Of a stretch of 49,338 nucleotides of DNA, positions 2,784 through 34,847 are shown piece after piece. The position numbers and the translations under genes are program-made. The notes under the pieces were generated by a model, which made no database searches, was not told where the DNA came from, and was given only the letters and a program-made list of their open reading frames with translations. The stretch lies in the NCBI GenBank assembly GCA_016208115.1, contig JACQYR010000115.1, positions 1 to 49,338 on the forward strand, written 5' to 3'. The first letter of the stretch is position 1. Every line of letters begins with the position of its first letter. This DNA is from Desulfarculus sp. GTDB lineage: Bacteria; Desulfobacterota; Desulfarculia; Desulfarculales; Desulfarculaceae.

Positions 2784-3868
2784 TCAATCCCGCCGGGGGG
2801 GGGCGGCCAGGGCCTGGTCCAGGGCGCGAGCCAACATCCCGGCCAGGACGCGGCGGTCAAAGGCTAGGGGCGGCGCCGCCAGGGGGGCGGGGGGCTCGTG
2901 CAGCCAGCGGGCCAGGAGGTCGGCCAGCTCCCGGTGCTGTCCGGGTTGCACCACTGACCCAGCCTTGGCCGCCTCCACGATCTGGCTGGCCGCGCCCCGG
3001 GGCAGCACCCCCAGCACCGGACGCCGCACCGCCAGGTACTCGAAGAGCTTGGCCGGCACCATCAGCTCCAGGCCGGGCAGGCCGGCCAGGGTCAGCACCA
3101 GCACGTCCGCCCCGGCCATGCGGCGGATGACCTGATGGTGGGGCTCGTAGGGCAGCACCCGCACGCTTAGGCCTTCCAAGCCAGGGTCCACCATCTGGCC
3201 GGGCACCACTCGGCCCACGATCTCCACCTCATAGCCCTGGCGCTGGGCCGGGCTCAGGAGGGCAAAAGCCGCCCACAGGTCGTCCAGGGGGTGGGACTGG
3301 AAGACCGTGCCCGTGTACAGGAGCTTCAGGGGCCGGCCATCCCGGGGGGGCGGGCCGGCGGGGGGGTCCTCCAGGACCGCGAAGTCCTCCAGGTCGTAGC
3401 CGTTGGGTATCCAGACATACTTGGCCGCCGGCCCGCCATGGCGGCGCTGAAGGCCGGCGGTCATCGCGGGGGTGTTGCCGATGACCCGGCTGGCGCCATG
3501 CACCAGGAAGCCCTCCAGGCGGCGCACCAGCATTTGCCATAGCCGGCCTCCTCCCTTGGCCGCGAAACCCTTGCTGAAAAATCCGCGGCCTTGAGGCGGG
3601 TCAAGAGGCCGGCGCCCTGGGCCGCCCCGCTGGTGGAGGCCTCGGCCGGGGCCGGCGGCTCGCAACTGGGCAGGCGGCGCACCACCTGGCCGGGGGGCAG
3701 GTCGCGGGCCAGGCTGGGGTCCAGGACCGGCACCGAGGGGCGGTCCGGGGTGAGCACCACCGAGCGCCAGCCATGGCTGCCCAGGTACTTGACGAACTTG
3801 AGCGCCCGCTGCACGCCCGCCCCGCCGGCGGGCGGGAAGATATAGCTGATGAACAGGACCGTCTTCAT
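2784..3868 (-). pseudogene. GT4-type glycosyltransferase interrupted by a one-base frameshift
   Basis: The N-terminal part starts with ATG at 3868 (MKTVLFISYIFPPAGGAGVQ) and the C-terminal part lies in another frame (VWIPNGYDLEDF, KLLYTGTVFQSHPLDDL, KLFEYLAVRRPVLGVLPRG). The frames join exactly at a run of five A on the plus strand (3577-3581; TTTTT in the gene): adding one T gives KAADFFSKGFAAK and restores a continuous protein of about 361 residues. The family transfers sugars from nucleotide-sugar donors; FPPxGGxGVQ is the N-terminal acceptor-side motif of a GT4 subgroup. The start overlaps the stop of the upstream GT4 gene by 4 bases (ATGA). A homopolymer read error is as likely as a true mutation. 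Confidence 0.85.
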
Positions 3869-15304: not shown

Positions 15305-16988
15305 TCAGCCAGTCCAACTCGGCGGTGGTGCGGAACATCCAGCCGTAGCGGCGCTTGGGCCACAAGGGATATTCGGGCTTGCCGTGGGCCGGTCCGTCCT
15401 TGATGTACCAGCGCTCCAGGTCGTACTTGGCGCTCTTGAAAAGCTCCTCCTGCAACCGCTCCAGCTCGGGGCGGACCTTGCCCTGCTTGCGTAAGAAGTA
15501 ATTGGCCGCGGCCACGGTCTTCAGGTTGTCCAGGCTGTGCTGCAGGTCGTTGTACTCGTAGACCTCGCGGTCCTTGGGCGGCTGGGAGCCGTAGAGGTAG
15601 TGGGCCACCACCCAGGGGTATTTCTCGCCCTTGCCCTGCAGCTTGTAGGTGCCGAAGCGGGCCAGGGACTCGGCCAGCATCTCGATGGACTGGGCCACCC
15701 GGGGGTCGGCGCTGACCAGGTAGTAGCGCAGCATGGCGTCCACGGCCAGGGCCGACATCCAGGAGCTGCACAGCCAGCCCTCGATCTTCTCGCCGTGCTG
15801 GCGGGCGGTGTGGACCATGCAGCCGTCCTTGGGCGCCCCGGGCAGGGGGTTGATCTGGGCGTTGTAGCCGGCCTCGAACAGGGCGCGCGCCCGTTCCAGC
15901 AGTTGGGGGTCGCCGGTCATCTCGTAGGCCACGGTGGCGTTGAGCAGGGAAAAGGCCAGGTGGCGTTCGGTCCAGAAGGTGCGCCGGGGGGAGAGCACCG
16001 GGTCCCAGGTGTCAAGGAGCTTGAGCACGTTTTTGGAGGTATTGAGCGCGCGCTCGTCGCCCGTGAGCCAGTAGGTCAGGGCCAGGCACTCCTGGAAGCC
16101 GAACTTGACGTCGGGCGGCTCCTTGTCGCCCAGGAGGGCGAAGCGGCCGTCGGGCAACAGCTTGGAACCGTAGACCTGGGTGGCGCGCACCCCCTGGCGC
16201 AGGGGCTCCAGCCCGCCCTGGCGGATGTAGGTGACGTAGAAGGTGGTGGCGCGGTCAAAGAGCCAGCACTCGTAGTCCTTCATGTAGTCGCTGACGTATA
16301 TCTTCTCCACTCGGGGATCGAACTGGTTGATGGCCGTGAGGAAGTACTTGCCCATGTTGTGGTCGTAGAACTCCCACTTGGGGTCGCTGCCCGACGGCAG
16401 GATGCGCCCCTTCAAGAGGGCCTGGCCCAGCCACTGCTTGGGCAGCACGGCGTAGACTGGCGGCTCTTGCAGATTGGTGCCGGCCAGCGCCTTGTCCTCG
16501 ATGACCAGCCAGTGCTGGCGGGCCGGCCACTCCTCGGTCTCGTTCTCCAGACGGGGGGCGCCCCAGCGCAGGGTGTAGGTGCGGGGCATGGCCACGGAGA
16601 TGAAGTCGCGAAATTGCACCAGAGCCGCGCGGATGCTGCCGGCCCCGGGCACCGGGTCCTTCCAGGTGGCCAGCACCTTGACCCGGATGGGCAGCTCTTT
16701 GCCGCCGTTGTCCACCAGGGAGATTTGCTTGGGGTCGCTCACGAAACCCGGGGGAAAGGGTACCCCGAAGCTTATCATGGTCACCCGGTCGGTGCTGCGG
16801 GGGTCGGTGTGCAGCACCACCGGCACCTGGCCCTTGGCCTGGGGCGGGGGGAAGAAGGCCAGGTAGGCCGGGTCCTGGGGGACGGAAGGCGGGGCTGCGC
16901 CCGCGGCCCCGGCCAGGCCGGCCAAGAGCATGAGCGTCAGGGCCGCCAGTAGCAAACCCGGGCGCGGGCGCCCGCGCGCTGGCCGCAT
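15291..16988 (-). CDS. Secreted alpha/alpha-toroid-like protein of unknown function
   Basis: A 565-residue protein with a clear signal peptide (LLLAALTLMLLAGLAGAAGAA). After an N-terminal beta-rich part (TMISFGVPFPPGFV), the C-terminal two thirds contain repeated helical hairpins such as LALTYWLTGDERALN, FSLLNATVAYEMTGDPQLLERA and DAMLRYYLVSADPRVAQ, the pattern of six-hairpin glycosidases and polysaccharide lyases. No catalytic residues can be assigned with confidence. ATG 16988 overlaps the PrsT-like stop by one base (TGATG); GTG 16991 is the alternative. A periplasmic role in trimming or binding the EPS is inferred from the context. I do not recognise a named family. Confidence 0.7.
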   Translation of the reverse strand: MRPARGRPRPGLLLAALTLMLLAGLAGAAGAAPPSVPQDPAYLAFFPPPQAKGQVPVVLHTDPRSTDRVTMISFGVPFPPGFVSDPKQISLVDNGGKELPIRVKVLATWKDPVPGAGSIRAALVQFRDFISVAMPRTYTLRWGAPRLENETEEWPARQHWLVIEDKALAGTNLQEPPVYAVLPKQWLGQALLKGRILPSGSDPKWEFYDHNMGKYFLTAINQFDPRVEKIYVSDYMKDYECWLFDRATTFYVTYIRQGGLEPLRQGVRATQVYGSKLLPDGRFALLGDKEPPDVKFGFQECLALTYWLTGDERALNTSKNVLKLLDTWDPVLSPRRTFWTERHLAFSLLNATVAYEMTGDPQLLERARALFEAGYNAQINPLPGAPKDGCMVHTARQHGEKIEGWLCSSWMSALAVDAMLRYYLVSADPRVAQSIEMLAESLARFGTYKLQGKGEKYPWVVAHYLYGSQPPKDREVYEYNDLQHSLDNLKTVAAANYFLRKQGKVRPELERLQEELFKSAKYDLERWYIKDGPAHGKPEYPLWPKRRYGWMFRTTAELDWLINQK

Positions 16989-22170: not shown

Positions 22171-23149
22171 CAGGGGATCTCCTCGCCTCTCTCCAGGGCG
22201 TGCACGGCCTGGGCCATTTCCCAGCAGGTCATGAAGCGCAGCCGGTGGCGGCCGCCGTCGTCGTGGCGCTCCACCAGCCCTTGCAGGAAGCGCCGGGCCG
22301 GCGCGCCCAAGAGGGCCTGGTGGGCTTTCTCGGGGGCGCCGTGGCAGGCCAGCTTGATGAAGCGCACATGCTCGGCCCCGGCCACGGCTGGGGCGTGGCG
22401 CAGCCACAGGGGCAGGCGCCTGAGGTCCGGGGGCAGGGACGGGTTGAGGTCCGAGTTCTCGATGCGCGGCAAGAGGCCCCATTTGCGCCGCCGCCAGTCC
22501 AGGGCCAACACCCCCTGTATAAGGAGCAGGTCGCCAGAGGGAGGGCGGCCCACCGCCGCCGGCCGGCCCTGGTCGTGGCTCTTGGGCCGCAAGGGGTCGT
22601 CGGTGGCATAGTAGATGGAGTTGATGGTGGCCGTCTGGGCCGGGCTGGGGGCCGAGGGCAGTGTGAAGTCGGCGTAGCAGCCGCTGTTTTTGAGCACCAA
22701 GAGCTCGTCGTTGACCCCGCACCAGGAGCCGTCGGGCAGGGAGTTGTCCAAGGCCCAGTTGCCATGGATGAAGCCGTAGGTCACCTGGCCGCTCAGGGGG
22801 TCCTGGCGCAATAGCCCGTGGCGTTCGTGCAACAACTGGGCAAAGGCCTTGAGCTTGTCGCCTAGCTCCGCTCCAGCACCTGGGGGTGGTACTCCTCCAG
22901 GGGATAGAAGAAGGTGTGCTGGGGCGGACGCCCCCGGCTGTCGGCGATGCCCTGGCACAGCTTGGGCAGGCCCTTCTCCCAGGCGGCCAGGCGGGCGCAA
23001 GCAGTGTTCAGGTCAGCCCGGTCCCAGAAGGGCTCGAAGTGGTCGGCCACGGCCAGGCAGATGGTCAGCGGCCGCCCCGTGGGCAGGGGCCGGGGCCGTA
23101 GGGCCTGGCGCAGATAGGCCCCCAGCCACAGCTCCAGGTGGCGCCTCAC
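22170..23149 (-). pseudogene. Exosortase-locus polysaccharide deacetylase-like protein, internally deleted and frameshifted
   Basis: The 5' part (GTG 23149) reads LTICLAVADHFEPFWDRADLN and PPQHTFFYPLEEYHPQVLE, then stops at TAG near 22862. The rest continues in a second frame from about 22868: LKAFAQLLHERHGLL, YGFIHGNWALDNSLPDG, NSGCYADFTLPSAPSP, KSHDQG. The halves clearly belong to one protein family seen in exosortase EPS loci. From memory of that family, about 25 residues are missing at the junction, including a GEVEVHLHH-type histidine motif. The 1-base and 4-base overlaps (GTGA upstream, TGATG downstream) with its neighbours are intact, which argues for a recent lesion or an assembly error. 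Confidence 0.75.
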
Positions 23150-24295
23150 GGCCGGTCCTCCTGGCCCAGGCCGATGGTCACCCGATGCTTGCCCGAGGGC
23201 GTGGGCGGGATGCGCTCCACCACCTGGATGGCGATCTCCACCCCCGGCAGGGCGCCGCCCACGATCTGCACAATCCGCCGGCGCTGGGGTTGATCCAGGG
23301 GCGCGCGCAGCACCAGGCGCAGAGTAAGGTGGTCCAGGCGGTCCTGCTGGGCCTGATTCAGTTGGGGGGATTGGGAATCTCCACCGTTTCCACCCTGCTC
23401 CTCGCGACGGCGGGGCGTGCGTCGATGGCACAGCAATACGAGGCAGGCCCTGGTGCCGGGGGCACTCGGCGGCCATGAGCATGAATTCGCGGCTACCGTA
23501 GGTCTCGAAGACCGGGCAGCCGAAGGCCGCTTCCAGGGCCTGGCGGCCGGGGGCGTGCAGGGCCTCGGCGCCCACGATGAGCGAGCGCAAGGAGGCCGGC
23601 GGCCGCCAGCCTCGGGCCCTTGCGTGGCGGGCCAGGATCAGGGCCGCCGAGGTGAAGGCCACCAGGCAGGCCGGCCGAAAGCGGCTTATGACCTTGAGGG
23701 CGCGCTCCATCTGGGCCGGGGTCATGTCGAAGCAGTCAAGGTATATCTGGCCCATGAGGCCCCGGTGCAGGCCGCGCTTGAGGCGGGCCAGGCCGGGCGG
23801 GGGGGTCAAGTCGCCGGCCCACAGGTACACCTGCCTGACTCCGGGGCGGCAGCCGGCCCAGGCATAGCCCCGGCGGCTCATGGCCAGGCGCCACTGGTCC
23901 GAGGCCGGGTCCACCAGGAACCTTAGCGGCCGGCCGGTGGAGCCGCCGGTGGCCTTGCCGAAGGTGCCGGCCAGTCGTGGGCTGGCCTGAAAGCGCCCAG
24001 GCTCGGCCATCAGCTCCTCGCGGCCGATCACCGGCAGGGGCGACAGGTCGCGGGCCCGGGTCATGTCCTCCACGGTGATGCCGCTATTGGCGAACCAGTC
24101 GGCATAGAAGGGCACCCGCTCCCGGGCCAGATTAAGCAGGGCCTCCAGGTCTTGCCACTGTTGCCGCGCCAGCACCTCCAGGGGCCAGTACTGGCTTTGC
24201 TCCAGCCGCAATTGCAGGCCAGGGGTGAGCCTTCCCCGCAGGCGCTCGTAGGCGGGCTGCATCAGCCCCCCCCATAGTCCGGCGTAGAGGTTCAC
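23146..24295 (-). pseudogene. PaaK-like adenylate-forming enzyme (phenylacetate-CoA ligase family), disrupted
   Basis: The start is GTG 24295, preceded by GGGAGG with 7-base spacing. The N-terminal two thirds are good: FGKATGGSTGRPLRF is the P-loop-like AMP-binding motif, and GCPVFETYGSREFMLMAAECPRHQGL carries the adenylate-binding segment (shown here only by its ends FETYGSREF and CPRHQGL). After about 23440 the frame turns to nonsense. The C-terminal tail reappears in another frame from about 23378 (LTLRLVLRAPLDQ, IPPTPSGKHRVTIGLG, stop at 23146). Roughly 75-90 residues expected between these parts are absent, replaced by about 60 unrelated bases. The stop overlaps the next GTG by 4 bases. 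Family members in EPS loci are thought to activate acyl groups. Confidence 0.75.
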
Positions 24296-25587: not shown

Positions 25588-26256
25588 TCAACGGCGCTGG
25601 GAGATGGGGGTGGGCGGCAGGAGCCTGTCCAGGGCCGGGATCAGGGCCGCGGCCAGGTTGACCTGGCCCTCCAGCACCTGGGCGTCGCCTGGCCGCTGGA
25701 TGGCCGTTAGTCGCACCAGAGCCCCGTCGGTGCGGTGTTGCGTCAGGCCGTCCAAAACCAGGTAGAGGCGGTCGCGGTACTCGTTGGGCTCCACCCGTCC
25801 CCGTCCCTGGTACCAGTAAAGCACGCTGAGCCGGTCCAGGTTCTGCCCCAGGACCAGGTGGTTGACCCTTTGGGGACCCTGGGGTCCGGGCACCAGGATA
25901 TCCTCGCGGCTTAGTATCTGCCAGCCGCCGCCGGGCAGGCAGTGGCGGGGCGAGTGGATCATGGCCCCTTCCAACTGCACCCCGAAGTAGGCCACGAAGA
26001 GCGCGCAGGCTCGGCCCTGGCTGTCCAGGTAGTTGCGCAGCAGGTAGTCCTGGGGCTTGAGTAGGTCCAGGGTGGGGGCGTCCAGGGGCTGATCGGCGCC
26101 GGCCGCCCGCCACTTGCCCAGGGCCAGGTCCAGGTGCGCCAGGGGCTTTTGCAGATGCAAGGGCGTCACCACCTGGCCGGCCTGAATCAATCCCAGCACC
26201 GCCAGCATCAGCCCCGCCGCCAGGGCCAGGTACAGCAGGCGCCGCCTATTTTCCAT
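25588..26256 (-). CDS. epsI: EpsI-family protein (DUF3485)
   Basis: A 222-residue protein with one N-terminal membrane anchor (LYLALAAGLMLAVLGLIQAG). The periplasmic domain contains the EpsI hallmarks DYLLRNYLDSQGR, YFGVQLEGAMIHSPRHCLPGGGW (given by its ends YFGVQLEG and SPRHCLPGG) and LSVLYWYQGRGR. EpsI is encoded next to, or fused to, exosortase and is needed for EPS production in Methylobacillus; its molecular role is still unclear. It overlaps the exosortase gene by 11 bases. Confidence 0.92.
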   Translation of the reverse strand: MENRRRLLYLALAAGLMLAVLGLIQAGQVVTPLHLQKPLAHLDLALGKWRAAGADQPLDAPTLDLLKPQDYLLRNYLDSQGRACALFVAYFGVQLEGAMIHSPRHCLPGGGWQILSREDILVPGPQGPQRVNHLVLGQNLDRLSVLYWYQGRGRVEPNEYRDRLYLVLDGLTQHRTDGALVRLTAIQRPGDAQVLEGQVNLAAALIPALDRLLPPTPISQRR

Positions 26257-27133
26257 GGCCAGCCCCTCCCCCGGGCTCGGGACCGCGCAAGAGGCTGGTG
26301 ATGCCCAGGAGAATCACAAAGCCGGCCATGAAGACCAGCCAGCCCACGAAGTCGTGGGTGGCCCCCTTTATCACCGCCTCGCCCAGGCGCTCGGCCAGCA
26401 CCCCGGTGATCAGCACGCGCAGGGCGTTGGCCAGCATGGCCACTGGCGGGACCAGGGCCACCAGGAGCACCTGGCGCCAGCGGCTGGCCAGCATAAGGTG
26501 GGCCAGGATCACCCCCACGGCCAAGAGGGAGATGAGGCTGCGGATGCCCGAGCAGGCGTCCACCACGTCCATGACCACCGAGGGCAAGTGGATGACGTTG
26601 CCCTCCACCAAGACCGGGTAGCCCAAGAGGCGCAGGCCCCAGCCAGCCAGGGACGCGGCCAGCAGGCGCAGAGGGAAGGCCACCGAGTCGTAGACCACGT
26701 AGGGCAGGGGCACCATCAGGACCAGGTAGGCTACCGGGAATAGCAGGCGCCTGGCCCAGGCCCAGCCCCAGTAGGTCAGCAGCAGTCCCCACAGCACGGG
26801 CAACAGGCTGATGCGGCGCAAAAAGAACTCCTGGGCCAACTGCCCCACCAAGAGCACCAAGAGGCCGGCGGCCAGCACCAATAGGCCCCAGGCGCAGGGT
26901 CCTTGGGGCAAGGCCAGGAGGCTTTCGCGCTCCCGCCAGACCAGCCAGGCGCTGACCAAGGGCACCATGAAGCCGTGGGAGTAGTTGGGGTCGGTCCACC
27001 AGTTCTTGGCCATGGAGGCCAGGTGGGGGACGTAGATCCACAAGAGCAGGCCCCCCACCAGGCAGCAGGCCGCCAGCAGGGCCGGGCCGGGGCGCGCGGG
27101 GTGGCCGCCATGGTCGTGAGCGGTGGAACTCAC
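26246..27133 (-). CDS. xrtA: Exosortase (EpsH/XrtA-type)
   Basis: A 295-residue polytopic protein with about eight helices. The start is GTG 27133, overlapping the upstream stop by 4 bases (GTGA). The catalytic triad proposed for exosortases is visible: Cys194 in VVDACSGIRSL, Arg239 in ANALRVLIT and His260 in THDFVGW. Exosortases are thought to cut and transfer PEP-CTERM-tagged proteins at the periplasmic face of the inner membrane, linked to EPS biosynthesis. The assignment to the XrtA subtype rests mainly on the gene neighbourhood. No PEP-CTERM substrate is encoded in this window. Confidence 0.93.
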   Translation of the reverse strand: MSSTAHDHGGHPARPGPALLAACCLVGGLLLWIYVPHLASMAKNWWTDPNYSHGFMVPLVSAWLVWRERESLLALPQGPCAWGLLVLAAGLLVLLVGQLAQEFFLRRISLLPVLWGLLLTYWGWAWARRLLFPVAYLVLMVPLPYVVYDSVAFPLRLLAASLAGWGLRLLGYPVLVEGNVIHLPSVVMDVVDACSGIRSLISLLAVGVILAHLMLASRWRQVLLVALVPPVAMLANALRVLITGVLAERLGEAVIKGATHDFVGWLVFMAGFVILLGITSLLRGPEPGGGAGHGK

Positions 27134-28587
27134 AGGCCACCTCCGCCGAAAAGCATGATCCTGGCGGTCTGCACCAGGATCATCACGTCCATGCTGAAGC
27201 TGGAGTGCTTGATGTAGTAGAGGTCATAGTTGAGCTTCTCCAGGGCCGCGGCCTCGGAGGAGCCATAGGGATAGCAGACCTGGGCCCAGCCGGTGATGCC
27301 CGGCTTGACGTTGTGGCGCTCGCTGTAATAGGGCAGGCGGGCGGTGAGCCTCTCCACGAACAGAGGGCGCTCGGGCCGTGGCCCCACGAAGCTCATGTCG
27401 CCCCTAAGCACGTTCCACATCTGGGGTATTTCGTCTAGGCGCGACTTGCGCAAGAAACGCCCCACGCGGGTGACGCGGGCGTCGCCGGCCGTGGCCCACA
27501 CCGGCCCGGTGTCCTTCTCGGCGTCCTCGACCATGGTGCGGAACTTGAGTATCTCGAAGACCCGGCCGTACTGACCCACCCGCGCCTGGCGGTAGATGAT
27601 CTTGCCCCGGCTGTCCAGGCGCACGGCCAGGGCGGTGAGCGCGGTGAGCGGCAGGGCCAGCAAAAGCCCCAGGGCGCTCAGGCCGATGTCCACGCCCCGC
27701 TTGCTCAGCTTCCTCAGCTCGTTGGTCTTGAAGCCCGGAGAAAAGATGAGCCAACTGGGCCGGATGTGGTCGGCCAGGATGCGGCCGGAGATGGTCTCTA
27801 AAAAGTCCTCGCCGCCCAGGATGGGCACTCCCAGCATGCGGCAGCGCAGCAGCTCCTCCAGGGGCATGCGGGTGCGTTTCTCGCCCATGGCCACCACCAC
27901 CAGGTTGGCCTGGTGGTGGCGTATCAGGCCCACCAGCTCGCTGGGGTCCCGGCGCAGGTCGGCCTTGAGCAGGTTGGCCCAGACCTCCAGCAGGTCCATC
28001 GGCGGCGCGCCCGGGGGCGCCCCCTCGGCCTCCCGGCAGGCAAGGGCCTCCTGGCCGCCGGGCGAGGGGTCCACGATGCAGACTATGTTGTAGATGTTGT
28101 CGGAGCGGCTGACGACTTCCTCCAGGATGGAGTCGGCCAGGTTGCCCGAGCCCAACAGGAGCACCTTGGTGGCCAGCAGGCGCTGCCGCAAGGCCCAGCC
28201 GTATAGCCCGCGCCAGATGAGGGTGAGCAGGGTGATGATGAAAAAGCCCAGCACCAGGACGCCGCGGCCCAGGAACAGGCGGGGGAAGATGTAGTAGACC
28301 ACGGCCATGGCTAAAGTGCCCACGGCCATGGCCTGGATCAGCCTGGTCACGGTCCACATGAAGGGGCGGGCGACCCGGAAGTTGTGCAGATCGAAGTAGT
28401 AGAAGGTGAACTGCAACACCATGGGCACCACCACGATGCGGTGCCAGGAGTAGCGCCAGGTGAATATCTCGGTGAAGCTGCCGGTGCGGAAATACACGGC
28501 CAGCAGGGTGCCCAGGCCCATGAGCAGCGACTCGCCCAGGAGAAAGGCGATCAGGTAGGGCGAGGGGCGGCTGGAGGGCACCTGCAT
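27130..28587 (-). CDS. Polyprenyl glycosylphosphotransferase (initiating sugar transferase)
   Basis: A 485-residue protein that starts EPS repeat-unit synthesis by moving a sugar-1-phosphate to undecaprenyl phosphate. About four N-terminal helices are followed by a nucleotide-binding-like domain (KVLLLGSGNLADSILEEVV), a fifth helix (VDIGLSALGLLLALPLTALTAL, residues given by its ends) and the cytoplasmic catalytic domain with IYRQARVGQ, FEILKFRTM and LDEIPQMWNVLRGDMSFVGPRPE. This matches the PEP-CTERM-associated family (TIGR03013-like, from memory). ATG 28587 lies 7 bases after the upstream stop; a GTG at 28620 is the alternative. Confidence 0.93.
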   Translation of the reverse strand: MQVPSSRPSPYLIAFLLGESLLMGLGTLLAVYFRTGSFTEIFTWRYSWHRIVVVPMVLQFTFYYFDLHNFRVARPFMWTVTRLIQAMAVGTLAMAVVYYIFPRLFLGRGVLVLGFFIITLLTLIWRGLYGWALRQRLLATKVLLLGSGNLADSILEEVVSRSDNIYNIVCIVDPSPGGQEALACREAEGAPPGAPPMDLLEVWANLLKADLRRDPSELVGLIRHHQANLVVVAMGEKRTRMPLEELLRCRMLGVPILGGEDFLETISGRILADHIRPSWLIFSPGFKTNELRKLSKRGVDIGLSALGLLLALPLTALTALAVRLDSRGKIIYRQARVGQYGRVFEILKFRTMVEDAEKDTGPVWATAGDARVTRVGRFLRKSRLDEIPQMWNVLRGDMSFVGPRPERPLFVERLTARLPYYSERHNVKPGITGWAQVCYPYGSSEAAALEKLNYDLYYIKHSSFSMDVMILVQTARIMLFGGGGL

Positions 28588-28594
28588 CTTTGGC

Positions 28595-29428
28595 TCATGC
28601 CTCCATTTCGGTGGACCCACCCACGGCCGTGGCGTCGGACACGGCGCCCAACATGTCGTTCATGACCACGCCCACGATCTTTTCCTCGGGCAGGGCGCGC
28701 AGGCCGCGCAAGGCCAGCTCGCGGTCGGTCTCGCCGCATAGCACCACGTAGACGATGCCCTCCACCATGCGCGCCAGCACCGCCGGGTCGTCGAAGGCCT
28801 GCACCGGGGGCGTGTCCAGGATGATGTAGCGGTCCTTGTAGCGGGCGCGCAGCTCGGTGAGCAGGCCGGCCATCTTGTCGGTGGCCAGTATCTCGGCCGA
28901 GCGCTGGCTGGGGCTGCCGGCGGGAATGACGGTGAGCTTGTCCACCGGGGTGCGGTGGATGATGTCCGGCACCGGCAGGTCCTGCTCCAGGAAGTCGGTC
29001 AGTCCCGGTTGGCGGGGCACCTGCAAGAGGTTGTGCATCACTGGGTCGGTGAGGTGGCAGTCCAGCACCATCACGAACTGTTGCATGCCGCGCGCGAAGC
29101 TGACGGCCAGGTTGGCGGTCAGCAGGCTGCGCCCCTCGCGGGGGGCGGCGCTGGCGATCATGATGGTGCGCGGCGGCTCGCCGTGGAAGGGGAAGAGCAA
29201 CTGGGAGCGCAGGATGTCAATGCGCTTGGCCTCGGGGCTGCCCGGGGCGTAGAGGCTCACCAGGCGCTCCTGGTCCTGCTCGTCGTAGTAGTCATCGCGC
29301 AGTGGCTCGTAGTGCGGCGGGGCCTGGGAGGCGGCGGGGGGCTGCGACGGGCGCTGGCGCGCCTCGCTGGCCGCCCCGCCGGGGGCGTCAGGGGCCGAGC
29401 GCTTCATCAGGTCAGTCATTTTGCCCAT
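28595..29428 (-). CDS. CpsD/TyrK-like ATPase of the exosortase locus with altered Walker A
   Basis: A 277-residue protein. ATG 29428 is fixed by a near-perfect AAAGGAGG with 6-7-base spacing, and it overlaps the ATPase gene by 17 bases. The fold matches bacterial tyrosine kinases of the Wzc/CpsD/TIGR03018 type: Walker A', VMVLDCHLTDPVMH, and Walker B, YIILDTPPVQAF, are present. The Walker A loop, however, reads SAAPREGRSLL, with Arg97 for the usual Gly and Arg100 for the invariant Lys. No tyrosine cluster is seen at the C-terminus, while the N-terminus has DDYYDEQ. ATP hydrolysis and autophosphorylation are therefore doubtful; a regulatory partner of Wzz is possible. Confidence 0.85.
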   Translation of the reverse strand: MGKMTDLMKRSAPDAPGGAASEARQRPSQPPAASQAPPHYEPLRDDYYDEQDQERLVSLYAPGSPEAKRIDILRSQLLFPFHGEPPRTIMIASAAPREGRSLLTANLAVSFARGMQQFVMVLDCHLTDPVMHNLLQVPRQPGLTDFLEQDLPVPDIIHRTPVDKLTVIPAGSPSQRSAEILATDKMAGLLTELRARYKDRYIILDTPPVQAFDDPAVLARMVEGIVYVVLCGETDRELALRGLRALPEEKIVGVVMNDMLGAVSDATAVGGSTEMEA

Positions 29429-30875
29429 GGCGGCCCTCCTTTGGCGTGATGGCGATGTTGGCCGCCTTGAGGGTCGGCCCCCAGTCCAGGGGTCCCTCCT
29501 TGGCCTTGGGGGCGGCCTTGGCCACCTCGGGCAGGGCGTCGGGTATCTCGATGCTGGGGCCGGCCAGACGGTGGCGCACCTTGGGCCAGAGCTTCTTGGC
29601 CGCGGCATAGCCGCCCAAGAGCAGGCTCAGGAGCACCACCAGCACCAGGATGCGCTTGAACAGGCTGCCAGGGGCCTCCCGGGACAGGCTGGCGGCGAAG
29701 CGCGACAGGAGGCCGCGCCGGGGGGCCACGGAGCGCGCGGAGGTCAGGTCGTACTCGTCGGGGGGCTCCTGGCGGGGCTCGGGCCGGGCCGGGCGCCTGG
29801 GCTCGTCCTGGGGCCGGCGGGGGGGCCGGGCCTCGCGAGGCGGTTGGGGCCGGGGTGCCGGTTCCGGTTGGGCGGCCTGGGGCGGCTCGCCCGCCAGCTC
29901 GGCGGCCAGGGCGGCGGTGCGGCTGGCGCCGCTGACGGGCGCGGCTGGCGTGGCCGGCGGCCTGGCCGGCACGGAGGGAGCGGCCGGAGCCGGCTGGGGG
30001 GGCCAGGCCGGCTCCTCCAGCGGGGGAGGGCAGGCCGGGGAAGCCGGCGAGGTGTCCTCGGCCGGCGGCCAGTCCAGCGAAGGGTCCTCGGCGGCGGCCC
30101 GCAGCACGATATCGGCGCCCAGTTGGTGCTGACCCTCGTGAAGGCCCTGCAGCATGGCGTCGTCGCAGACAGAGTTTATCAGACGCGGCACCCCCCGGCT
30201 GACTTGGTGGATGACCGCCAGGGCCTCGGGGTCGAAGATGTCGCGCTGGGCGCCGGCCAGCTTGAGACGCTGGCGCACGTACAGGGCCGTGGCCTCGGCG
30301 TTCAAGGGCTTGAGGGCGTAGGAGCGGTGCAGACGTTGCAACAGGGCGCGGGCGGCCGAGCGTTTGAGCACGCGCACGATCTCCGGCTGGCCCACCAAAA
30401 AGATGTTCAGCACCTTGGGTGAGGAGTTGTCCAGGTTGCCCAACAGGCGCAGCTCCTCCAGCATCTCGGCCGATAGGTCCTGGGCCTCGTCCACCACCAC
30501 CAATATAAGCTTGCCCTCGCGCCGGCAGCGGCCCAGCAATTGGGCCAGGGCCGCCAGGAAGGGACCCTTGCTGGCAAAGGGGCCGTCCAGGCCCAGTTCC
30601 AGGGCCAGTTGGTTGAAGAAGTCCAGGGGCACCAGCTTGGGGTTGGTCACCACCGCCGAGAGCACCCGGTCACCCATCTCGCGCAAGAGAGCGATGATGA
30701 GGGTGGTCTTGCCCACGCCCGGCTCGCCGACCACCAGGGCCCAGCCCTCCTGCTGGTCAATGGCGTAGACCAGGGTGGCCAGGGCTTCCTGATGCTCCTC
30801 CATGAGCACCAGGAAACGGGGGCTGGGCTCGGCGGCGAAAGGTTTTTCCTTCAGCCCGTAGAAGTCGGTGTACAT
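29412..30875 (-). CDS. Exosortase-associated AAA ATPase (ExeA-like) with Pro-rich linker and membrane anchor
   Basis: A 487-residue protein. MYTDFYGLKEKPF is the typical ExeA/TIGR03015 N-terminus. Walker A is GEPGVGKTT at residues 50-58 and Walker B is LILVVVDEAQ ending near residue 131; SRGVPRLINSVCDDAML is the sensor-2 region. Residues about 270-385 are proline-, alanine- and arginine-rich. A single helix near 412-430 (ILVLVVLLSLLLGGYAA) then anchors a short C-terminal tail, probably periplasmic. The family is a constant partner in exosortase EPS operons and may energise or organise the export complex. Start ATG 30875 is 4 bases after the Wzz-like stop. Confidence 0.9.
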   Translation of the reverse strand: MYTDFYGLKEKPFAAEPSPRFLVLMEEHQEALATLVYAIDQQEGWALVVGEPGVGKTTLIIALLREMGDRVLSAVVTNPKLVPLDFFNQLALELGLDGPFASKGPFLAALAQLLGRCRREGKLILVVVDEAQDLSAEMLEELRLLGNLDNSSPKVLNIFLVGQPEIVRVLKRSAARALLQRLHRSYALKPLNAEATALYVRQRLKLAGAQRDIFDPEALAVIHQVSRGVPRLINSVCDDAMLQGLHEGQHQLGADIVLRAAAEDPSLDWPPAEDTSPASPACPPPLEEPAWPPQPAPAAPSVPARPPATPAAPVSGASRTAALAAELAGEPPQAAQPEPAPRPQPPREARPPRRPQDEPRRPARPEPRQEPPDEYDLTSARSVAPRRGLLSRFAASLSREAPGSLFKRILVLVVLLSLLLGGYAAAKKLWPKVRHRLAGPSIEIPDALPEVAKAAPKAKEGPLDWGPTLKAANIAITPKEGRHGQND

Positions 30876-30879
30876 CGGC

Positions 30880-32559
30880 TTAGGTCACCAGGTGAAAGAA
30901 TTTGAAGATTTTTAGAAAGATGTTCTTGAAGGCCTGCGCCCGGCCCGTGACCAATATGCCCACCATGCCCAAGAGGACGAGGAAGTAGGCCCCGTAGCAG
31001 GTGGCCACCAGGCTGGTCCAGAAGCGCTTGCGGTTGCGCTCGGCGGCGGTGGTCAGGGGGGGGATGACCACCAGCACCGGGAAGTTGCCCTGGCGCTCCA
31101 ACTGCCCCACCGAGGTGAAGGAGGTGTCCAGGAAGTTTAGGCCCAGGGACAGGCCCAGGGCCAGGGCCAGGCCCAGGCCCAGGCTGGCGGGCAGGGCGCG
31201 CTTGACGCTGGGGCGGAAGGGGGCGTCGGGTACCTCGGCCGGGTCCACCACCTCGAACTGCTCGCCGCGCTGGGTGCGCTCCAGGTTGGCCGAGAGGTTG
31301 GCGTCCAGGGTTTTGCCCTACAGCTTCTCGAAGGCTATCTTGAGGGCCTCGTAACCGCGGGTCAGCTCGATGAGCCGCTCGGCCACCGCCGGGCCGTTCT
31401 CGATGCGCTTGCGCACCTGCTCGATCTCGGAGGCCACCTCGGCCCGCTCCTGGATGACCGCGTCTATGCGGGCCTGGTGCTCGCGGATGCGTGTGGCGAT
31501 GCGCTCGCGGCTCTGGCGCACCGAGTCCAGGGCCACCGATTCGGCGTCCTTGTCGGCGGTCTCGGAGGGCTGGATGCCCTTGGCCAGCATGGCGGCGGCC
31601 TTCTGGGCGTTTTTTTCGGCCTCGGTGGCCTCGGCCTTGGCCAGGTGGGTCTTGAGGCGCAGGATGTCGGGGTGGTCCTCGGTGTAGATGACCAACAGCC
31701 GCTCCAGCTCGCTACGGATGGCCTTGGAGGTGGTCTCCTCCTGGTTCTTGGCGCCGATGCCGCCACCGCCACCGCCCTGGCGGCGCTGCAACTCCTCGCG
31801 GTGCAGCTTGAGCTGCTCCTCCCGGAACTGCTCGGTGCCCAGCTCCTTCTCCAGGCCGTCCAGGCGGGTGCGCTCGCCCTGCAGGATGCCGCTGAGCTGC
31901 ACGTCCTTGTTCTGAAACTGGCCGATGATGAAGAGGTTTTTCTCCTGGGCCTCGGGCAGTTCCTGGAGGTGGCGCTCCTTGAACTCGGTGATCTTGGCCT
32001 CCCACTCCTGCAACTGGCCCTTCATGCGCTCCATTTCCCGAGACAGGAAGCGCGCCGTGCCCACGGCGTCCTCCTCGCGGATACGCAGGTTGCTGTCCAC
32101 GAAGAAGGCGGCCAAGGCGTTGGCCACCGCGGCCACGGTCTGGGGGTCGAAGTAGAGAAACTCGATGGTGAAGTAGTTCTTCTGCGAGATCTTGATGCTG
32201 ATGTCCTTGCGCATCAACTGGGCCAGCTCGTCGGGGGCCAGCTTGTCTTTCATCTGGGGATAGAGGTTGAAGCGCTCGATGATCTCCATCAAGCGGCTGC
32301 GGCTCAAGACCTGCTGGGTGATGATCTGCAGGCGCTCCTGGATCTTGGTGGTGACCGTGGCCTGCACCAGCTCAGTGGGCACCTTCTGGGGCTGCACCAG
32401 GACCAGGCAAGAGGCCTGGTACATGGGCGGCCAGAACAGGCAGTAGGCCACGCCCACGGTGAGCACGGTGAGAAAGATGGTGGCCGAGAGCACCGCCCGC
32501 CGCTTGATGATGAACAGGTACTTGCGTATGTCTATGGTTGGGGTGGCTTGCGTGGCCAT
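30880..32559 (-). pseudogene. Wzz-like chain-length determinant with an in-frame amber codon
   Basis: The frame spans 559 codons from ATG 32559 but contains TAG at 31318-31320 (codon 414). Both sides are in the same frame and match one family: N-terminal helix (LSATIFLTVLTVGVAY), a long coiled-coil periplasmic domain (LQEWEAKITEFKERHLQE and SRERIATRIREHQAR), then FEKL-amber-GKTLDANLSANLE, QRGEQFEVVDPAEVPDAPF, and two C-terminal helices (SLGLGLALALGLSLGL, AYFLVLLGMVGILV). Termination at the amber would give 413 residues without the second membrane anchor. The family (TIGR03007-like, from memory) controls EPS chain length. CAG to TAG is a one-base change, so error, mutation or readthrough are all possible. 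Confidence 0.85.
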
Positions 32560-32563
32560 GTTT

Positions 32564-33934
32564 CTACCACCTGAAAGGCAGTTCGTAATCCATCGAGAGG
32601 ACCACCCGGTTCTGTTCCAGGTTGTCGGTGTCGTTTTCGCTGTAGCGCGTCAGGTAGCGGTAGTCCAGCTTGACGCTCCAGTGCTGGGTGAACTGGTAGG
32701 AGGCCAGGCTGTAGAACCGCCAGTACTCGGCGTAGCCCAGGGTGGTGGGGGAGACGCCGGCGCTCTGGTTCTGCTTGTAGTCGTCGCGCACCCAGTCGGC
32801 GCCAAAGCCCAGGCGCCAGCGCTGGGCCGGCCGCACGTCCAGGCTGGCGCTGACCTGTTTGCGGTCCACCAGGCCGGTGTTCTGCCCCAGGCTCTGGTTT
32901 TCGTCCATGGAGGCCAGGGTGGAGATTCTAAACAGCCACAGCTTTTCGCGGTAGGTCAGTTGCAGATTGCCCACGGGGGCGTATTCGCCCGAGGCCGAGT
33001 TGGCGCGCTTTTCGCCCTCCACGTAGGTGACGCCTCCGTAGCCCTCCAGTTCCCATTTGGGGCTAAAGGCCTTTTTGAAGCCCAGGCGGGGGGAGTAGTA
33101 GGTGTAGTCGCGGCCCTGCTGGATACTGCCCACGTCGCTCAAGGAGCGCGAGCCGCCCACCACGGCGCCGGCCCACACCTCATCGTGGGAGTTGAACAGG
33201 TAGGCCAGGCGGGCCTCGGCGGTGCCGCGCTGCACGTCGCTGGAGCGCTCGTAGTCGTCCTGGTCGCCGGTGAGGAACAGGCTGGTCCGGTAGCGGGGGC
33301 TCAGGCGGTAGGTCAGGCCCAGGTCGGCGTGATGGCTGACTTGGTCCTCCAGGGAGGGGTTTTCGTTGCGGGTGATGGCGTAGGAGTAGCCGGCTGTTAA
33401 CTGGCTGCCGCCCGGTCCCAAAAGGCGGGTGACGCGGGCGCCGGTGGTGTTGCGGTCGCGGCGGCCGCTGGCCGGGCGCACCCGCGAAAAGCCGCCGACC
33501 TCGTCTATCTCCTCCTGGTCGAAGCTGGAGGAGAAGGCGTTGTAGGCCTCGAAGGCCCAGATGCGCGTGGGCAAATAGCGCCAGCGGGCGGTGATGTCGC
33601 CGTTCTGGAAGCCGTCGTAGTTGTGCAGGCGGTAGTATTTGTCGAACTGGGCCGAGGCCGACACCTGGAAGAGGTTGTTGGGCTTGCCGGCCTCTAGGGT
33701 GGCGGCCGGCCGCGTGGTGACGAAGCCGTCGCCGCGGCGGGCCTTTTGCTGGCGCACGTTGTCGTCGTAGCCCACGCCAGCGCTGATGCTGGGGGTGAAG
33801 ATGATGCCGGCCCGGGCCGGGGGCGGCGCCAGGGCCGCCAGCATCAGGCAGATCGCCAGCCAAACCAGGCCCCCGCGCCCCCCACCGGGGCGGGACCTGC
33901 CGGCCGCTGCTTGCTGGCTTCTGGTACTGGTCAC
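32564..33934 (-). CDS. Outer-membrane beta-barrel protein of the exosortase EPS system
   Basis: A 456-residue protein, start GTG 33934, overlapping the upstream Wza-like stop by 4 bases (GTGA). A signal peptide (WLAICLMLAALAPPPARAG) is followed by alternating amphipathic strands, for example ISAGVGYDDNV, ARWRYLPTRIWAFEAY, LTAGYSYAITRNENP and SLASYQFTQHWSVKLDYRYL. The C-terminus ends in a terminal Trp (YELPFRW), a typical outer-membrane barrel ending for BAM recognition. It resembles the TIGR03016-like barrel (from memory) of PEP-CTERM/EPS loci and probably forms or assists the outer-membrane exit channel. Confidence 0.85.
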   Translation of the reverse strand: MTSTRSQQAAAGRSRPGGGRGGLVWLAICLMLAALAPPPARAGIIFTPSISAGVGYDDNVRQQKARRGDGFVTTRPAATLEAGKPNNLFQVSASAQFDKYYRLHNYDGFQNGDITARWRYLPTRIWAFEAYNAFSSSFDQEEIDEVGGFSRVRPASGRRDRNTTGARVTRLLGPGGSQLTAGYSYAITRNENPSLEDQVSHHADLGLTYRLSPRYRTSLFLTGDQDDYERSSDVQRGTAEARLAYLFNSHDEVWAGAVVGGSRSLSDVGSIQQGRDYTYYSPRLGFKKAFSPKWELEGYGGVTYVEGEKRANSASGEYAPVGNLQLTYREKLWLFRISTLASMDENQSLGQNTGLVDRKQVSASLDVRPAQRWRLGFGADWVRDDYKQNQSAGVSPTTLGYAEYWRFYSLASYQFTQHWSVKLDYRYLTRYSENDTDNLEQNRVVLSMDYELPFRW

Positions 33935-34509
33935 GGTACGATGATTATGTCCCCGGGTTGTAGCTCCATGTTCTGCATGGGGTTCTTGCCGGCCATCACT
34001 TCTGAGAACTTGACCGGCATGCGCGTCTGATTGACCCCCTTGCCCCTGAGCACCACCACGTCGTCCTTGTTGGCCCAGTCGTTGAACCCCCCGGCGGAGG
34101 CGATGCCCTGCAACACGGTGGTGGCCGACAGCAAGGGATACTCGCCGGCCCTGGTCACGTTGCCCAGCACGCTGAAGGAGTGGCTGCGGGGGTTGTTGAC
34201 TATCACGTAGACCTTGGGCGCGGCGATGTAACGCTCCAGGGACTTGGTGATGGCCTCCTTGAGTTCCATGGGCGTCTGGCCGGCGGCCACCACGTCGTCG
34301 GCCAGGGGCATGGACAGCCGGCCGTCGGGCCGCACCAGCACGTCCCGGCGGGTCAGGGCATCCTCGCGCCAGACCACGATCTCCAGGATGTCGCTGGGAC
34401 CGATACGGTAGGGCTCCAGCATGGCGTCAACGGCCAGGGCGGGCAGGGCCGGGGCCAGCAGACCCATGAAAACCAATAAACTCAGCACAATTTTTTTCAC
34501 AGGCCGCAT
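33931..34509 (-). CDS. Wza-like polysaccharide export protein
   Basis: A 192-residue exported protein. ATG 34509 (MRPVKKIVLSLLVFMGLLAP) gives a clean signal peptide ending PALA; the longer open frame upstream has no signal logic. The poly-export domain starts YRIGPSDILEIVVWRED, continues with VLVRPDGRLSMPL and KVYVIVNNPRSHSFSVLGNV, and a SLBB-type segment GNVTRAGEYPL follows. It is the short form found in exosortase loci (TIGR03027-like, from memory), without the C-terminal outer-membrane helix of E. coli Wza. No lipobox cysteine is present. It is the first gene of the minus-strand EPS operon. Confidence 0.92.
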   Translation of the reverse strand: MRPVKKIVLSLLVFMGLLAPALPALAVDAMLEPYRIGPSDILEIVVWREDALTRRDVLVRPDGRLSMPLADDVVAAGQTPMELKEAITKSLERYIAAPKVYVIVNNPRSHSFSVLGNVTRAGEYPLLSATTVLQGIASAGGFNDWANKDDVVVLRGKGVNQTRMPVKFSEVMAGKNPMQNMELQPGDIIIVP

Positions 34510-34847
34510 CCTCGTCTCAAACCGGCAGCGAACATCGGGGGACAACTCAGCAAGCCTTGTAGGCGATTGCTGTTTTACCTTAGTCCATAGCGGGCTGGGC
34601 CGCAAGCCAAAAATGCTACGAGCCACGCATGGTTGACAACTGTCAGTAATGATTCGCAGGCTTACGACAAGGTGATTTGCTCCCCCTTGCGGCCGTCCGC
34701 CTGGGCTATATTAGGGCCTGGCGGGCGGGTCCCTGGCCTTGGCCGCCTGGCACAGGGGTGAATAACTTATCGGCCGCCGGCGCCGAAGCTTTAATCTTGA
34801 GCCCAAGGCCGGCGTTTCGCCATCGCGGATGTGAGGTTTCATAGGCC
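34510..34847. other. Divergent intergenic region upstream of the EPS operon
   Basis: This 338-base gap separates the Wza-like gene (minus) from the NodB-type deacetylase gene (plus) and is the most AT-rich stretch near the EPS core. Weak sigma-70-like pairs are present: for the minus strand TTGCGG (34600-34605) with TAAGGT (34577-34582) at 17-base spacing; for the plus strand TTGCGG (34687-34692) with TATTAG (34709-34714) at 16. A TGACA-AC-TGTCA inverted repeat (34634-34645) could be an operator. No sigma-54 -24/-12 pair with proper spacing was found. I see no gene here. Confidence 0.4.

Follow-up and report, generated by a model that had tools for sequence, protein, structure and literature searches.

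We found that a Wzz-type chain-length determinant gene in a draft genome of Desulfarculus sp. is interrupted by an in-frame TAG, and that this stop is probably a recent and isolated nonsense substitution that turned a Gln codon into amber; the assembled genome has no other recognisable copy of the gene. The genome is a 3.99 Mb draft of 291 contigs (85.9% complete), and the window, the whole stretch of DNA analysed here, is positions 1-49338 of one contig. The tests favour a mutation of recent date, or an error in the sequence, over a new reading of the genetic code.

The interrupted gene and its neighbourhood

The plus strand reads CTA at 31318-31320, which is TAG on the minus strand, and the frame 32559..30880 (minus strand, 559 codons) has no stop besides this TAG at codon 414 before its final TAA. 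The initial annotation had placed the TAG within a continuous frame that matches its family; the checked sequence bears this out, and the alignment to the NCBIfam profile TIGR03007 spans the stop. The parts of the gene and its neighbours are as follows.

31318..31320, minus strand: in-frame TAG, codon 414 of 559 (sequence and translation)
31321..32559, minus strand: codons 1-413, Wzz-type chain-length determinant with the N-terminal membrane segment (23-41) and the greater part of the coiled coil (Pfam Wzz, 31.2 bits against a cut-off of 25.5 on codons 1-413 alone; hydropathy)
30880..31317, minus strand: codons 415-559 and the final TAA, with the end of the return helix, a conserved run (424-450) and membrane segments 456-474 and 519-537 (alignment, hydropathy and predicted model)
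29412..30875, minus strand: adjacent downstream gene, ATPase of XrtA-associated type (TIGR03015 at 218 bits, under its cut-off of 324.5)
28595..29608, minus strand: tyrosine autokinase of XrtA-associated type (TIGR03018 at 169.5 bits, under its cut-off of 230.65; the true start may lie downstream of the listed one)
27130..28620, minus strand: XrtA-system glycosyltransferase (TIGR03013, 465.2 bits, over the cut-off of 393.35)
32564..33934, minus strand: outer membrane protein, TIGR03016 type (33.8 bits, below the cut-off of 90.85)
33931..34626, minus strand: polysaccharide export protein, TIGR03027 type (138.3 bits, below the cut-off of 180)

Read through the stop, the frame matches TIGR03007 (XrtA-system chain-length determinant) with 244.9 bits over protein residues 10-533 and profile positions 2-494 of 498. 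This is under the curated cut-off of 278.85 bits, and the four intact relatives that were tested are likewise under it (231.5-257.0 bits). Hence, the shortfall is not caused by the stop. The read-through frame passes the gathering score of Pfam Wzz (PF02706; 30.6 bits against 25.5), and among solved structures there were weak Wzc matches only (E = 8.4e-5). No compensating paralogue was recognisable in the assembled genome, where the sole other match reached 24.5 bits over 42 residues.

Window neighbours over their NCBIfam cut-offs belong to TIGR03013, TIGR02914 and TIGR02917, with several others below. No exosortase was recognised, as 26208-27140 had no NCBIfam or Pfam match. Judged by these profile matches, the neighbourhood is of the XrtA/PEP-CTERM (exosortase-associated) polysaccharide type. 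PMC1569441 describes Pfam chain-length determinant genes as accompanying XrtA/PEP-CTERM-type systems.

The sequence beyond the stop is coding-like: the coding score of the first 25 codons past the TAG was the second-highest among 349 modelled genes, and the 145 codons past the TAG align with relatives over their whole length. The frame after the TAG is not a chance extension.

Codon 414 in relatives and constraint around the stop

Among named relatives, the closest is a draft genome of Desulfarculus sp. from groundwater (JACRDC010000037.1), which differs from the gene at 88 of 1680 nt and shares 97% protein identity with it. Most of the window aligns with this relative at 90-95%, and the flanks of the TAG align cleanly. 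Its codon 414 is CAG (Gln), which fits the CAG to TAG change that the initial annotation had put forward.

Column 414 was read in 18 of the 21 other genomes with matches; a partial gene (G004) and two weak matches (G001 and G053) were left out. We found a sense codon in 18/18 of these genomes and TAG in 0/18. The 14 genomes of the same family carry His (11), Gln (2) or Tyr (1), and the four distant genomes carry Glu, Met, Met and Arg. Stops within the alignment were seen in three relatives, only at column 554, close to the natural ends. In one family member (G012, contig C29), the match to the chain-length homologue is divided over two frames near residues 65-76, which is another broken or mis-assembled copy.

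Selection on the two sides of the stop was compared with the closest relative. Codons 1-413 differ by 17 nonsynonymous and 56 synonymous changes (dN/dS 0.084), and codons 415-559 by 1 nonsynonymous and 13 synonymous changes (dN/dS 0.026), so there is no sign of decay in the tail. If translation had been absent from it along the whole branch of the window, it should have gathered about 19 nonsynonymous changes (P(<=1) ~1e-7). Hence, if the tail is untranslated at all, it has been so for no more than about the final quarter of the branch, on the assumption of equal branches. A sense codon in relatives together with constraint on either side of the stop is the pattern of a young nonsense allele; constraint before and after the TAG means that the stop is young, or is read through, or is absent from the cells.

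Hydropathy gives three membrane-like segments (23-41, 456-474 and 519-537). The predicted model is modest (mean pLDDT 69.5, pTM 0.41) and serves mainly to place codon 414 within a long helix, 337-433 (block pLDDT 93 and 84); it has C-terminal helices at 458-481 and 505-537. Columns 424-450 are mostly invariant in seven sequences. A stop at codon 414 removes the end of the long helix, the 424-450 run and both C-terminal segments. The initial annotation had said that truncation costs the protein its second membrane anchor; the loss stands, and the single anchor becomes two C-terminal hydrophobic segments (about 456-474 and 519-537).

On the reading as a nonsense substitution, translation would end at codon 414 with a product of 413 residues. 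This product would retain membrane segment 23-41 and the greater part of the periplasmic coiled coil, and would break off before the return helix is complete and before either C-terminal membrane segment. Since these parts are missing, we infer that it should not work as a chain-length regulator. The change would then exist in living cells, the product would be inactive, and control of polysaccharide chain length would be lost or altered.

The same window holds two lesions of another kind relative to the near relative. At 22868, 73 nt are missing and the frame of a minus-strand gene is shifted; at 23357-23442, an unrelated 86-nt stretch replaces about 298 nt in an AMP-ligase-like minus-strand gene, whose frame is also shifted. 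These two lesions suggest decay or assembly trouble.

Stop usage and the search for amber decoding

We scanned 1,225,316 bases (31% of the genome, window included) with 946 modelled genes, which end in TGA (382), TAG (380) or TAA (184). Codon use per 1000 is 36.6 for CAG, 7.6 for CAA, 14.2 for TGG and 1.8 for CGA. Within the initial 449,338 bases (349 genes), 13/141 TAG stops were followed by an in-frame extension that looks coding, vs 15/208 TGA or TAA stops (p = 0.55).

Interior-stop candidates with coding sequence on both sides numbered 46 (27 TAG, 10 TGA and 9 TAA). By eye, eight are true interruptions (3 TAG and 5 TGA); the other 38, which were not checked singly, look like same-frame neighbours or antisense frames or are unclear. 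The five TGA (L113 4746 and 7843; L142 1086, 3905 and 11384) lie at what we take to be selenocysteine positions of MvhD-like and HdrA-like proteins, two formate dehydrogenases and a peroxiredoxin. Since the scan picked up these typical sites, the method can see recoding of that kind. The same scan over 758,409 bases from the near relative, run as a control, yielded 26 candidates (16 TAG, 6 TGA and 4 TAA), among which we recognised by eye four Sec-like TGA sites and no other interrupted gene. These TGA sites, at L224 411 and L226 1708, 7460 and 8192, are similar to those of the present genome.

All three recognised interior non-Sec stops in the 31% sample are TAG, which is weak evidence because CAG is frequent. 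The difference from the near relative (3 vs 0) is not significant (P = 0.16). The two besides codon 414 are the following.

L117 2813-3676, minus strand, stop at 3248: 6-phosphogluconolactonase with interior TAG (TIGR01198, 197.2 bits, cut-off 124.45)
L182 14195-16180, minus strand, stop at 15836: membrane-protein gene with interior TAG (no NCBIfam match)

At the stop column of the 6-phosphogluconolactonase, 13 loci of 12 other genomes carry Gln (4, near relative included), Asn (7), Ala (1) or His (1), and the tail evolves faster than the front (dN/dS 0.468 vs 0.239). The membrane-protein gene has matches in 11 other genomes, and its stop column is Ser in 9/9 relatives examined. Its alignment ends at residue 640 in 8/9 of these relatives, though their frames reach 1031-1389 residues; hence, this copy seems frameshifted or decayed as well. 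The residues opposite the three interior TAGs (Gln, Gln and Ser) give no hint of one common inserted residue.

The pyl searches covered the N-terminal domain of PylS in the genome itself and the C-terminal domain of PylS, PylC and PylD in 60 genomes. In the 86%-complete genome itself, PylS N-terminal and PylD had no match, and the best matches to PylS C-terminal (29.2 bits vs a cut-off of 178.15) and PylC (27.7 bits vs 248.3) were far lower than required. The frames behind the 29.2-bit matches are long and probably encode other class II synthetases, and 13/14 control genomes match likewise. PylS C-terminal, PylC and PylD were over cut-off in none of the 20 genomes of this family (Desulfarculaceae), the present one included. 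PylS C-terminal was over cut-off in 16/60 genomes, all in one other family of the class (16/34), and PylC (14/60) and PylD (4/60) follow the same family division. The PylS-positive genomes are, by our numbering, G026, G030, G033, G037, G039, G041-G043, G047-G050, G054 and G056-G058. Hence, pyrrolysine is probably used near this lineage.

No CUA anticodon was found among the 35 tRNAs of the draft, whose tRNA set is incomplete (found with Rfam, all read by ARAGORN), or among the 40 tRNAs of the near relative. A pattern search for a CUA tRNA gave 7 matches vs 23 for the reversed pattern, and ARAGORN called none of them a CUA tRNA; two of the seven lie within ordinary tRNAs, Leu(cag) and Arg(tct). 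The 3' part of the tRNA-Leu(cag) is repeated about 1.6 kb away (contig C2, 8911-8943 and 10516-10548, in L111), which resembles the attachment site of a small integrated element. Similarly, 28 bases of the 3' part of the tRNA-Arg(tct) recur near the end of another contig (C216 7337-7364 and C221 15422-15449), where ARAGORN finds no tRNA; this site is perhaps an element boundary. The tRNA-Gln(CUG) is present in the near relative and missing from this draft, and the region that surrounds it in the relative is absent from the 31% sample.

No PYLIS-like structure was seen, as the 103 nt from the TAG onward fold no better than shuffles (z = +1.0). Among Rfam matches near the site with E up to 1, there was only a microRNA family (18.4 bits vs a gathering score of 69).

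Pyrrolysine decoding found no support: PylS, PylC and PylD all stayed under cut-off in the family, none of the 35 tRNAs read CUA, and the TAG is unconserved. The initial annotation had held out amber readthrough as an alternative and proposed a search for pylS and an amber suppressor tRNA. That search found neither in this 86%-complete draft with its incomplete tRNA set; as TAG is also fully used as a terminator and the interior TAGs have no residue in common, the alternative is unsupported.

Weighing the readings against known systems

The main rival to a nonsense substitution is that the TAG is a consensus error or a strain mixture in a draft metagenome assembly and that the cells have an intact gene. 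We hold this to be possible though unlikely. It would suit a draft in 291 contigs that is 85.9% complete, the lesions at 22868 and 23357-23442 of the same window, and a tail without sign of decay; however, the alignment with the relative is clean around the TAG. Errors of one base in a consensus are usually rare, and for this reason we lean toward a real allele. Against a nonsense allele stand the undecayed tail, the recognised interior non-Sec stops that are all TAG here with none recognised in the near-relative sample, and the tRNA-Gln(CUG) missing from the draft. The initial annotation had also suggested a functional truncated form; the 413-residue product might act by itself or together with a C-terminal piece that has its own start. 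A GTG-started frame of 123 aa (31251-30880) does cover both C-terminal hydrophobic segments, but by eye the stretch from the TAG to this GTG has neither an ATG nor a clear ribosome-binding site, column 414 is a sense codon in all 18 comparable genomes, and the protein would be cut within a long predicted helix. As the invariant run and both C-terminal membrane segments would be lost, we consider such a form very improbable.

Readthrough by pyrrolysine or an undetected suppressor tRNA would give a full-length protein and would account for a frame conserved past the stop and for three recognised interior non-Sec stops that are all TAG; PylS in 16/34 genomes of another family of the class and the incomplete tRNA set of the draft are also in its favour. 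We nevertheless regard it as highly unlikely, given PylS, PylC and PylD under cut-off in 20/20 family genomes, no CUA tRNA here or in the near relative, no relative with TAG at the column, no unusual RNA fold after the stop, and extensions after TAG that are no more coding-like than those after TGA or TAA. TAG also ends 380/946 genes. A view cited in parts of the recoding literature holds that in pyrrolysine-type organisms UAG may both terminate and be translated; hence, the frequency of TAG at gene ends is not enough to exclude readthrough or some suppression. In a related reading, amber suppression operates in the population, perhaps through a changed tRNA-Gln(CUG), and scattered ambers (codon 414, the 6-phosphogluconolactonase and others) are tolerated while TAG still ends about 40% of genes. 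Such a suppressor would also explain three interior TAGs here and none recognised in the near-relative sample, and, since the tRNA set is incomplete and the region of the missing tRNA-Gln(CUG) lies outside the sample, there is room for a changed copy. We give this reading the least credence. If it were true, the surprise would be that a natural amber suppressor is tolerated where so many genes end in TAG. One isolated in-frame TAG from a draft assembly says little in favour of recoding and should be read with caution.

Compared with known systems, the gene is like XrtA chain-length determinants (TIGR03007; Wzz/Wzc-type co-polymerases) in its near-full-length best family match and its XrtA-type neighbours; it differs in scoring below the cut-off and in a frame broken by TAG. 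Genes with pyrrolysine-decoded UAG likewise have a TAG within a conserved frame, whereas here the TAG is conserved in no relative examined, the family has no PylS, PylC or PylD over cut-off, no CUA tRNA was found, and no methyltransferase was noted. Recoded stops of the selenocysteine type seem to be present in this genome (five TGA), but codon 414 is an amber codon, and neither Sec nor Cys occurs in this column in any homologue. The TAG, as seen in a draft assembly, resembles nonsense alleles and young pseudogenes in being a single unconserved stop in an otherwise conserved frame, with a sense codon in the nearest relative.
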